From: an uncultured Synechococcales cyanobacterium
GTDB taxonomy: Bacteria > Cyanobacteriota > Cyanobacteriia > Thermosynechococcales > Thermosynechococcaceae
Assembly (NCBI GenBank): GCA_902806435.1
Contig: CADCWO010000104.1
Span: 1 to 58,057, forward strand
Reading direction: 5' to 3'
Length of the DNA stretch: 58,057 nt
Shown here: positions 48,590 to 52,960 of the stretch, piece after piece
Layout of the letters: the number at the start of each line of letters is the position of its first letter
How positions within the stretch are numbered: position 1 is the first letter of the stretch
The notes under the pieces: model-generated
Seen by the model: the letters and a program-made list of their open reading frames with translations, nothing else
What the model was told of the DNA's origin: nothing
Databases searched by the model: none
Program-made: the position numbers and the translations under genes

Positions 48590-48889
48590 TTAGGGATCTT
48601 GAGACTTTTGCGGTGATTCGGCAGTCGGCCACAGTAGACACAAACCCATAAATGCGAAACCAATAGCCGCAATCGCCTTTAAAAAGTAGGTTGGTAATAA
48701 TTGGGCAACCCCTTCCCCGGCCAGCACACCCAAAAAACTGGTAAAAATCAATGCCGCTGCTGTTCCCAGAAATACAATCCGAGGGGATTTTGAGCGGCTA
48801 CTGAGAGTGATAGCTGCCAGTTGACTTTTGTCTCCCAGCTCCGAGAGGAAGACCATCATAAAACTGATTCCCAGAAGATGCCAGTTCAT
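48590..48889 (-). CDS. UPF0016/GDT1 half-transporter, second gene
   Basis: 99 residues, three membrane helices. It carries one copy of the ExGD(K/R)(S/T) signature (FLSELGDKSQLAAI). GDT1/TMEM165/Mnx proteins move Mn2+ or Ca2+ and usually have two such halves in one chain. Here each half is a separate gene and they probably form a heterodimer. The ATG at 48889 lies one base after the stop of the preceding gene; the longer frame reaching 48928 is rejected. Confidence 0.88.
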   Translation of the reverse strand: MNWHLLGISFMMVFLSELGDKSQLAAITLSSRSKSPRIVFLGTAAALIFTSFLGVLAGEGVAQLLPTYFLKAIAAIGFAFMGLCLLWPTAESPQKSQDP

Positions 48890-48890
48890 A

Positions 48891-49280
48891 CTACAGGTGA
48901 GTGATATCCCATAACAGCAACACGGCAATTAGAAGTAGACTAGCTCCGGCGGCTGTCCTAAGGACATCTGGTGTGAGCCGTGAAGCCAGCCACCGTCCTA
49001 GGATTACCCCCACCAAACTCACTAGAACCAGAGCAGAAGCTGCTCCTGTAAAGACAATCCAAGGCGATTGCGATTCAGCAGCCATCATTAAGGTTGCTAG
49101 CTGGGTTTTGTCTCCCAATTCTGCTAGAAAAACAGTAAAAAAGGCCATGAAGAAGGAGCGACCCAATTCCTTTGGAGATTGCTTTTCGGCAGATAGCTTA
49201 AGGGAGGTGGGCTCTTGATCTTGAAGCTTATTACTGATAGTAGTGCGCGGTGGCAGTTCTGGCTTGATAAAGTTTGGCAT
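48891..49280 (-). CDS. UPF0016/GDT1 half-transporter, first gene
   Basis: 129 residues: a polar N-terminal tail of some 40 residues, then three membrane helices with the signature FLAELGDKTQLATLMM. It pairs with the next gene, one base downstream. ATG at 49280; the GTG at 49289 would add three residues. Cation (Mn/Ca) export is the known family function, and substrate is not decidable here. No yybP-ykoY manganese riboswitch is recognisable upstream. Confidence 0.88.
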   Translation of the reverse strand: MPNFIKPELPPRTTISNKLQDQEPTSLKLSAEKQSPKELGRSFFMAFFTVFLAELGDKTQLATLMMAAESQSPWIVFTGAASALVLVSLVGVILGRWLASRLTPDVLRTAAGASLLLIAVLLLWDITHL

Positions 49281-49331
49281 GGAAGCCACAGTATGGCTAA
49301 AGAATAAGCTGGTTCAGCTTGAAATTAAAAC

Positions 49332-50096: not shown

Positions 50097-51359
50097 ATGA
50101 TATTTGGAGAGATATTTTATGCCATATTTCTAATTTTATCGCTGTTTATTTACTGGGCTGTAGATAGCAAATTAAGAGTTGGTGTAATTGCAGCTTCTGG
50201 TGTTGCTTTTTATGCTTACTATGCTAACTATTGGGTACTTTTACTAGTTGGAATAACTTTAGTATCGTGGGCTACATTGCTTTGGTCACCGCTACAAGTT
50301 GCAGTAGGTAATGGTACCGCAGCTTCTTCTGCGCCGCTTCAGAACAACCGTCATAGTAACGCACTAGCCATAGCATTCCATGGGAAAACCGAAAGCAACT
50401 TCAGCCAAGGGTTAGCGCTCGCAACGATTCCAATATTTGTATGTATCCTTGGCTACTTTAAATACGGTGGTTTTATTCGAAGCATATTTACGGGAGGAGA
50501 AGTGCAGCCCGTTATTGTTCCTTTAGCAATTTCATTTTTTACTTTTGAATTTATTCATGTTGCCTATGAAAAATACAAAGGCAATTTAGAAAAAGTAAGT
50601 TTATTAGACTATTTTTCTTTTATTTTCTTCTTCCCAACAATGATTGCTGGCCCGATAAAAAGGTACGGCCAGTTTTCGCAGCAGCTTGAGGCAGCAACAT
50701 TAACAGCCAAAGATTTTTTGGAGGGTTTGTTTAGAATTATCCTCGGGCTTACTAAGAAGGTTGTTATTGCCGATAATTTGAACACCTACATTCAAGAGAT
50801 CGGCTCTCCAGAAAAAACCCAAAACACAGTTTTATTAAGTGGGGCAATTTTTTTGTACGGTTTTCGGATTTACATGGATTTTTCTGGATATAGTGATATT
50901 GCGATCGGCAGTGCCCGACTTTTTGGGATTAAAGTTCCAGAAAACTTCAACTACCCTTATTTACAAACCAACATTACTGCTTTTTGGCGGCACTGGCATA
51001 TTAGCTTGTATACCTGGCTAGTTGATTATGTTTACATCCCCTTAGGCGGAAGCCGGGTTGGTGTTTCTCGCGCCTTACTCAACGTTTTAATCACAATGGT
51101 GATTTCTGGGATCTGGCATGGTGCAGCTTGGAACTTCATTTTATGGGGTTTGTGGCACGGCATTTTGTTAGTCATTCACAAAATTTATGCTGATTCTGTC
51201 AAGCCGAACATTAAACCAGATGTCTTACAGGGTAAGTACTATCAAGTTTTAAGTTATTTACTGACTATGGTTGCTGTGTGGTTTGGCTGGTGTCTATTTA
51301 TGTGGCCCCTAGCTGATGTCAGCCGTTATTTACAACTTCTTGTGAGGGCAGTAACATGA
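50097..51359 (+). CDS. MBOAT O-acyltransferase (DltB/AlgI-like)
   Basis: 420 residues with about eleven membrane helices. Family signatures: FFPTMIAGPIKRYGQF, the FWRHWHISLYTWLVDYVYIPLGG block (His299, His301) and the catalytic His341 in ISGIWHGAAWNF. These enzymes take an acyl group from a cytoplasmic donor and pass it across the membrane to an outside acceptor. The 5' half is AT-rich, suggesting transfer from elsewhere. The stop overlaps the start of the 36-residue peptide gene (ATGA). No ribosome site is obvious before the ATG. Confidence 0.92.
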   Translation: MIFGEIFYAIFLILSLFIYWAVDSKLRVGVIAASGVAFYAYYANYWVLLLVGITLVSWATLLWSPLQVAVGNGTAASSAPLQNNRHSNALAIAFHGKTESNFSQGLALATIPIFVCILGYFKYGGFIRSIFTGGEVQPVIVPLAISFFTFEFIHVAYEKYKGNLEKVSLLDYFSFIFFFPTMIAGPIKRYGQFSQQLEAATLTAKDFLEGLFRIILGLTKKVVIADNLNTYIQEIGSPEKTQNTVLLSGAIFLYGFRIYMDFSGYSDIAIGSARLFGIKVPENFNYPYLQTNITAFWRHWHISLYTWLVDYVYIPLGGSRVGVSRALLNVLITMVISGIWHGAAWNFILWGLWHGILLVIHKIYADSVKPNIKPDVLQGKYYQVLSYLLTMVAVWFGWCLFMWPLADVSRYLQLLVRAVT

Positions 51360-51466
51360 GGCAGTTTTTGCTGGAGATCAGTCTCGCCTTTATCATGTTG
51401 TTTCACGTTTTTTTGATCTTAAGTTTGGGGGCCTCCAGTAGCGAGTTTATCTACATAGATTTTTAG
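51356..51466 (+). CDS. DltX-like micropeptide, probable acyl shuttle
   Basis: 36 residues, below usual gene-calling limits. A short N-terminus with Arg2, one membrane helix (ISLAFIMLFHVFLILSLGA) and the C-terminal sequence SSEFIYIDF, predicted outside. DltX of Gram-positive bacteria is a similar one-helix peptide encoded with dltB and dltD whose C-terminus reads FIYNEF as I recall, with the Tyr taking the acyl group. Here Tyr33 would be that residue. The start overlaps the MBOAT stop by ATGA, and the SGNH gene follows. The order MBOAT, micropeptide, SGNH supports the call. Confidence 0.65.
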   Translation: MRQFLLEISLAFIMLFHVFLILSLGASSSEFIYIDF

Positions 51467-51496
51467 TTGAATAGATTGAAAGGCAGGGGGGTTGTT

Positions 51497-52672
51497 GTGT
51501 CATCAAGACGGAATATCTATGTAGATTACCTGGGTTGGTTAAACCCAGCCTCTGCACAACGGATTTTAATCCTTTTTCTGATTGGCTTACTGGTAGCAGA
51601 GCTTTGTCTGCGCATTCTAAATCCGCAGTACTCGCGTACAGCCGTTAGTTCTCTGCACGGAACCCGTGCCATTTTCCAACAGGCTGTTGAATACCGTGAG
51701 GCCAAAATTATTGCTGTTGGGGACTCTACATTAGTTGGAGGTGGCGTCTACGACCACAACAAAACTGTCATGGGCCTCTTGGCAAACGCTTTAGAGACAA
51801 AACCCCGTTTGTTTAACTTGGCAGTTCCGGGAGGGGATGCCACGACTTCAGCGCTTCTTTTAGACAGTGTTAAGAAAGCAGGAGTAAAAAATGTAGAAAG
51901 GGTGATCATTGAAGTCATACCTAGCAAGTTTCGCGTCTATGAAGCAGGAGCGGTGACTTCTAAAGATACAGCTAAAGGTACGGCTGAGTCCCTGCAACGC
52001 TACATACCATTTATCAATCCTCAAGCTTTCGGTCTAGATGTGCCGAAGTTACCCTACACTGACCAGTTTGAAGTTGCAGCAGAGTGGATGCTGGGCAACC
52101 TGTCGATGCTTTACCGTCACCGAGATTTTTTGCGCACGGAATATGTTGGCAATTATCCAGCTCTCTGGTTTGTTGGTACGTTGATCCCCCGCCCGATGCT
52201 GGCACGCTTGTTTCCGAGTAAAGCGGAGGGCACCAATCGGTTAGCGGCCCGGACTGACGATTTTCCCTTTAAACCGGAGTTCGTCTCAGAACCGAATAGC
52301 CGTCTACCCCGATTTACACCCCATACGCAAGGTGATTATCTAGAACAGGCAGTCGCGATCGCTAAAAGCATCAGTTCTAAGCCGCCGATTATTCTTTCCT
52401 TTCCTACCCATTACGAGTATGACCAAATCAATACCGAACAACGGCACTACTATTTGAGGTCTTTGCAGGAGTATAAGCATTACTTACAGACCGTTGCGGC
52501 TCAATCTGGGAGTGAACTTGTGGTCATTCCCTCAGAAAAGTTTCAAGCCCCAGAACTGTGGACCCGTACTCCAGCTCACTTTAACGCCAGAGGATCAATG
52601 GTTATATGGAAAATGATGCAGCCCCAGCTTTGCTCGCTATATTCCTCTACCTGTAAGCCTCAAAGTGCCTGA
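51497..52672 (+). CDS. SGNH/DltD-like membrane-anchored acyl-transfer protein
   Basis: 391 residues from the GTG at 51497, which has AGGCAGGGGG six bases upstream. TTG at 51467, right after the micropeptide stop, is the alternative. One membrane helix near 23-43 (ILILFLIGLLVAELCLRIL), then an outside SGNH hydrolase-type domain: nucleophile in AVGDSTLVGGG (Ser77), Gly-Asp-Ala in VPGGDATTS, and His361 in TPAHFNARGS. The usual Asp of DxxH is Thr358. DltD and AlgJ/AlgX proteins of this type place acyl groups on outside polymers. It is the third gene of the cassette. Confidence 0.8.
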   Translation: MSSRRNIYVDYLGWLNPASAQRILILFLIGLLVAELCLRILNPQYSRTAVSSLHGTRAIFQQAVEYREAKIIAVGDSTLVGGGVYDHNKTVMGLLANALETKPRLFNLAVPGGDATTSALLLDSVKKAGVKNVERVIIEVIPSKFRVYEAGAVTSKDTAKGTAESLQRYIPFINPQAFGLDVPKLPYTDQFEVAAEWMLGNLSMLYRHRDFLRTEYVGNYPALWFVGTLIPRPMLARLFPSKAEGTNRLAARTDDFPFKPEFVSEPNSRLPRFTPHTQGDYLEQAVAIAKSISSKPPIILSFPTHYEYDQINTEQRHYYLRSLQEYKHYLQTVAAQSGSELVVIPSEKFQAPELWTRTPAHFNARGSMVIWKMMQPQLCSLYSSTCKPQSA

Positions 52673-52819: not shown

Positions 52820-52960
52820 ATGGATTTTTTAAATAGTTTTTTGAGTGGCTTTGGGAACGTGAACTGGGAAGTAATCGCTCAGCTATCAATGGTTGGTTTA
52901 ATTATTCTGGCTGGTCCAGCCGTAATATTTTTACTGGCAGCTAGAGGTGGTGATCTCTAG
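52820..52960 (+). CDS. psb30: Photosystem II protein Psb30 (Ycf12)
   Basis: 46 residues, one membrane helix. The sequence [20 protein letters not shown] followed by a [14 protein letters not shown] ending closely follows Psb30/Ycf12 as I remember it from Thermosynechococcus. It is a small subunit of the PSII core near cytochrome b559. Too short for default gene callers. GAGAGG lies five bases before the ATG. It converges on recJ with 13 bp between stops. Confidence 0.88.

Follow-up and report, generated by a model that had tools for sequence, protein, structure and literature searches.

What is a 36-codon frame doing between the gene for an MBOAT acyltransferase and that for an SGNH protein in a cyanobacterium? 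In the window, by which we mean the whole stretch of 58,057 nucleotides analysed here, the MBOAT gene, the 36-codon frame and the SGNH frame follow each other on the plus strand (Table 1), an arrangement reminiscent of the split shuttle layout that has so far been described for the D-alanylation of Gram-positive teichoic acids. We conclude that this cassette very probably encodes an acyl-tyrosine relay that works like DltB-DltX-DltD and yet is not Dlt, and that it belongs to a patchily distributed lineage of split MBOAT-microprotein-SGNH cassettes found in several phyla. What is new is the Dlt-like layout in a non-Dlt lineage; the chemistry and the layout themselves are known.

Table 1. Features of the three-gene cassette (positions in the window).
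Feature	Position	Strand	Remarks
MBOAT acyltransferase	50097..51359	+	420 aa, DltB-like length; PF03062 and comparison
Putative catalytic His341 codon, GIWHG	51117..51119	+	Homology to the conserved MBOAT His
Putative Shine-Dalgarno-like GAGGG	51344..51348	+	7 nt before the peptide ATG; from sequence
One-helix microprotein, candidate DltX-like acyl shuttle	51356..51466	+	36 aa; ATGA overlap with the MBOAT stop
C-terminal hexapeptide FIYIDF (FxYxxF acyl-shuttle motif)	51446..51463	+	Motif scans and alignment
Tyr33 codon, proposed acyl carrier	51452..51454	+	Invariant in 22 aligned sequences
Putative Shine-Dalgarno-like AGGGGGG	51485..51491	+	Before GTG 51497; from sequence
Membrane-anchored SGNH/GDSL transferase-like protein	51497..52672	+	Likelier start GTG, 391 aa; frame open from TTG 51467
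Gly-Asp-Ser nucleophile motif	51719..51727	+	Ser77 (391-aa numbering); Ser invariant in relatives
Late His361	52577..52579	+	Invariant; the Asp of relatives at H-3 is Thr here

A sequence-only reading of this DNA had described an MBOAT protein with a catalytic His341 and, overlapping its gene by ATGA, a 36-residue one-helix peptide ending in FIYIDF, and both descriptions were confirmed. The MBOAT protein matches PF03062 (E=8.5e-38; 130.9 bits, cut-off 27), His341 sits in the WHG block as GIWHGAAWN, and in a sequence comparison with the PDB the best relatives are DltB chains. It is the sole MBOAT of its own genome. Its C-terminus reads QLLVRAVT, without FxYxxF, and it lacks the motif and the two C-terminal helices found in the fused MBOATs, which carry FxYxxF on their own C-terminus. 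The peptide, MRQFLLEISLAFIMLFHVFLILSLGASSSEFIYIDF, is a single hydrophobic helix and corresponds to the last helix and motif of those fused proteins.

The same reading had seen in the third gene an anchored SGNH protein with a GDS motif and a late His. These elements stood, the anchor being one N-terminal hydrophobic helix, and Ser77 and His361 are invariant in the alignment (Ser77 in 13 sequences), while the GTG at 51497, preceded by the AGGGGGG, appears from its sequence context to be the likelier start. The usual catalytic motif of SGNH enzymes is D-x-x-H, and nearly all aligned relatives have it, whereas the window protein reads T-P-A-H; the absence of the triad Asp weighs against the relay reading, and the protein might possibly use a Ser-His dyad. 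Its score against PF13472 (22.5 bits) is below the family cut-off. A search for the SGNH protein in 58 relatives gave no match, more distant relatives surfacing only through an iterative profile. Judged by sequence, the genes that flank the cassette look unrelated to it. On the same basis, two overlapping half-size frames on the minus strand at 48590-49289, which have ELGDKS and ELGDKT motifs, look like Gdt1/UPF0016-type transporters in tandem, and on the plus strand at 52821-52960 there is a small hydrophobic frame that resembles the photosystem II protein Psb30/Ycf12.

Is the small frame a gene at all? In an alignment of 22 microproteins (20 non-Dlt and 2 true DltX), Tyr33 and Phe36 are invariant. 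Codon comparison of 16 microprotein pairs placed most differences at third positions, and pN/pS was 0.16-0.62 in 15 of the 16 pairs, mostly 0.2-0.5, with a single pair at 0.78. This is the behaviour of a translated frame kept by purifying selection, and the small frame is a conserved gene. The less than 1 Mb of DNA gathered ahead of the pattern scans contained no frame of at least 25 aa ending in F[ILV]YxxF other than MBOAT tails, MBOAT-linked small ORFs and true DltX. The frame and its terminal motif are conserved in orthologous loci, so the lack of conservation that the sequence-only reading had named in advance as a refuting outcome did not occur. Neither Pfam nor NCBIfam has a family that takes in these short genes at threshold, and three matches checked in a scan of plasmids for an annotated split cassette were all fused.

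How might the three products work together? PatA acetylates the Tyr of its own fused FxYxxF tail and the resulting acetyl-Tyr is the donor to PatB, and in Dlt the Tyr carrier has been described as DltX (PMC12148441). The window microprotein is DltX-like by layout, namely a one-helix peptide with a C-terminal FxYxxF and a conserved Tyr that is encoded with an MBOAT and an SGNH protein. Because the D-alanine supply is the one element of the Dlt relay that the cassette lacks, a relay from MBOAT His to peptide Tyr, SGNH Ser and acceptor is its best reading. By analogy with the tested Dlt and PatAB systems, from which we infer both the chemistry and the order of transfer, the three proteins would act as one complex in the membrane, the target of acylation being a polymer of the envelope or outside the cell. 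The MBOAT protein would take the acyl group from a cytoplasmic thioester, probably an acyl-CoA as for PatA, and, using His341, would load it onto Tyr33 of the peptide's FIYIDF tail. The microprotein would be a single-pass membrane peptide whose tail faces outwards, and this tail would swing to the SGNH protein, whose Ser would receive the acyl group and from which it would be transferred to the final acceptor. Acetyl is a guess for the cargo. Glycosyltransferases near some split loci hint at a glycan acceptor, the window itself carrying no such hint.

The cargo is the point at which another reading fares best. The same complex might handle an acyl group supplied by an acyl carrier protein, or a long-chain acyl group, instead of acetyl from acetyl-CoA, which we regard as possible though doubtful. 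At two Sericytochromatia-type loci (L183:1057-2892 and L184:1003-2847) an AMP-binding, acyl-CoA-synthetase-like enzyme is encoded around 100 bp upstream of an SGNH-MBOAT-microprotein cassette, suggesting a local acyl-CoA supply; the L183 frame matches PF00501 with E=9e-84 and that of L184 is similar by sequence. In Paenibacillus sp. SC116 (L181:802-12724) the cassette lies at the end of a cluster with an ABC-2 exporter, ATP-grasp, radical SAM/SPASM and Gfo/Idh proteins and, a few kb upstream, an 84-aa PP-binding carrier protein and a KASIII-like protein; this cluster may perhaps make a secreted natural product. Such AMP-binding, carrier and KASIII-like neighbours mean that the cargo may differ between lineages. 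They are, however, lineage-specific, and none is found beside the window cassette or at most of the loci.

It is unlikely that the microprotein has a purely structural role, with the acyl group passing directly from the MBOAT to the SGNH protein. What speaks for this is a fold of the homologous pair at L048, chosen because MBOAT and microprotein there share one frame and could be modelled by reading through the stop. This model (pLDDT 89, pTM 0.88), whose nearest solved folds are DltB, places the shuttle helix at residues 424-441 with a pLDDT of about 82-90; the tail was not seen docked, the last four residues having a pLDDT below 50. Nevertheless, the Tyr-containing motif is the very element that fused tails, DltX and these peptides have in common, and it is this Tyr that is acylated in PatA (PMC12148441).

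Could the relay be, after all, a true D-alanylation system, with a dltA and a dltC that have diverged or are located elsewhere? It shares the MBOAT-microprotein-SGNH logic, and adenylation domains are numerous in its own genome, where 19 matches stay below the DltA cut-off, but we consider this very unlikely. Against the DltB equivalog TIGR04091 the window MBOAT scores 196.6 bits, with a cut-off of 375; no DltB exceeded the cut-off in 19 genomes (18 related ones and its own), no DltC did so in 23 (its own and 22 relatives), and no DltA did so in its own genome, in agreement with the earlier observation that neither dltA nor dltC is visible here. Among the 25 listed of 85 families for the 57 ORFs neighbouring cassettes, none was an AMP-binding or carrier domain, although some occur at further loci, such as the Sericytochromatia-type and Paenibacillus ones above. 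A regular expression for the carrier motif missed known dltC controls and was discarded. The window peptide has no match to PF12459 (gathering score 25 bits), against which the microproteins of two relatives reach 14.5 and 13 bits and true DltX proteins 73.5 and 58.2. In an unrooted MBOAT tree of 52 sequences, the DltB rows form a separate clade (100/100); these references were drawn from lactobacillus and Niallia plasmids, the Neobacillus genome's relatives having yielded none. With the searches for DltB, DltC, PF12459 and, in its own genome, DltA all below cut-off, Dlt membership was rejected.

The likeness to Dlt had been put in stronger terms, as a gene order that mirrors DltB-DltX-DltD. 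As an analogy this is supported, since the tail Tyr and the separate microprotein gene are conserved in six phyla, the small frame is under purifying selection, the MBOAT protein has DltB both as its best solved relative and as its closest fold, and DltD tops the matches to the SGNH model, a poor one (pLDDT 60; E=7e-5, TM-score 0.36). To the letter the order does not match, because in reference true dlt operons it is X-A-B-C-D, with the microprotein before dltA.

How widespread is the split form? MBOATs were gathered by MBOAT similarity alone, without use of the motif. The sources were 390 genomes of the class, a set covering bacteria and archaea in which each species is represented by one genome, and further genomes, and small ORFs were sought on the same strand within 3.5 kb in the DNA available around each. 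The collection fell into two groups. In 104 rows FxYxxF lies on the MBOAT C-terminus with no small ORF nearby; the other 39 rows, which represent 22 distinct loci including the window, have a tail-less MBOAT, and a separate same-strand small ORF ending in the motif was present in every one of them. No row had both a fused tail and a small ORF, or neither. The split loci come from Cyanobacteriota (Sericytochromatia), Bacillota, Verrucomicrobiota, Actinomycetota, Myxococcota and Planctomycetota, and their gene order varies (MBOAT-peptide-SGNH, SGNH-MBOAT-peptide or MBOAT-SGNH-peptide), the trio staying together. In a third split lineage (Opitutales, Myxococcota and Gemmataceae) the microproteins end in FIYVAF or FIYLAF, and their frames, with stops at L056:6257, L078:2534 and L086:2347, lie away from the MBOAT 3′ end. 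The Pelotomaculum genome (G394; L039 and L133) has, besides two split systems, another MBOAT that is longer.

Scanning for the peptide-end pattern added four split loci, all in the Sericytochromatia-type family, where the microprotein lies beside the MBOAT gene in five of five sampled genomes; the remaining Cyanobacteriia genomes of the sample gave no MBOAT-linked peptide match. Among the sampled cyanobacteria the cassette is confined to this genome and that family, and is not a general cyanobacterial feature. In Verrucomicrobiota a true match was found in 1 of 145 genomes, namely the centre genome. As AT-rich genomes yield many chance matches, those of the phylum scan were counted only when beside an MBOAT gene, and the counts exclude some matches listed without a locus. 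A spread as patchy as this, over six phyla and with one genome among the sampled Cyanobacteriia, hints at horizontal transfer or repeated loss.

The MBOAT tree agrees with this division. All fused rows form one group (100/99) and, DltB apart, the remainder are split; the window groups with 17 other split rows (92/98), the nearest being of the Sericytochromatia type, with up to 45% identity. AU tests rejected two placements of the window, one beside the main fused MBOATs of cyanobacteria (p=0.0024) and one beside the same-family fused MBOAT (p~1e-38). Forcing the window into the whole fused group gave a rejection that is only borderline (p=0.0507), a point against our main reading. That a normal fused cyanobacterial MBOAT recently lost its penultimate helix through a deletion and frameshift, leaving the peptide as a C-terminal scrap, is extremely improbable: fusion is the usual state of MBOATs in the class (390 genomes), their last helix and motif are what the peptide matches and the test against the whole fused group is borderline, but the same split is found at 21 further loci with differing gene orders, the microproteins are under purifying selection, and the existence of split orthologues in other phyla largely refutes a recent break. 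A broken cyanobacterial fused MBOAT was accordingly ruled out by the orthologues and by the AU tests for two fused sets.

Why does a separate microprotein matter? A 2025 paper states that MBOAT/SGNH pathways other than Dlt have no DltX-like microprotein (PMC12148441), and the occurrence of the split form in six phyla contradicts this statement. It also adds short genes that stand outside Pfam and NCBIfam families at threshold. A full-text literature search returned no description of a non-Dlt split cassette, although one 2023 paper on the DltX shuttle might mention one. We lean towards regarding these cassettes as a third class of MBOAT/SGNH acylation system, widespread but patchy, with a Dlt-like separate microprotein and no D-alanine activation, in diderm and monoderm bacteria, in which the separate microprotein is maybe the older state and the fused form a single later fusion. 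Since a single branch of the tree has every fused MBOAT on one side and every split one on the other, it becomes possible to test how the fused shuttle arose. The split form offers, in addition, a natural two-piece shuttle whose carrier can be mutated, tagged or exchanged apart from the enzyme.

Compared with known systems, the cassette stands closest in layout to Dlt. Like DltB-DltX-DltD, it has a short MBOAT without a fused motif, a separate one-helix FxYxxF microprotein and an SGNH partner, and DltB is the nearest solved structure to its MBOAT. Unlike the machinery of teichoic acid D-alanylation, it has no adjoining dltA or dltC, its MBOAT falls below the DltB cut-off, its peptide is not PF12459, its genes follow an order other than X-A-B-C-D, and its hosts include diderm bacteria. 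With PatA-PatB and AlgI-type systems it shares an MBOAT and an SGNH protein, a C-terminal Tyr motif and an expected acyl-CoA donor, whereas in those systems the MBOAT itself bears the motif, on extra helices before which the cassette MBOAT stops, and here the motif has a gene of its own. Finally, the cyanobacterial fused MBOATs, proteins of around 500 aa that end in YIYFDF and similar sequences, belong to the same superfamily, have the same type of tail and are 35-45% identical to the window MBOAT, but they occupy a different branch of the tree, and a grouping with the window was rejected for the two sets tested.
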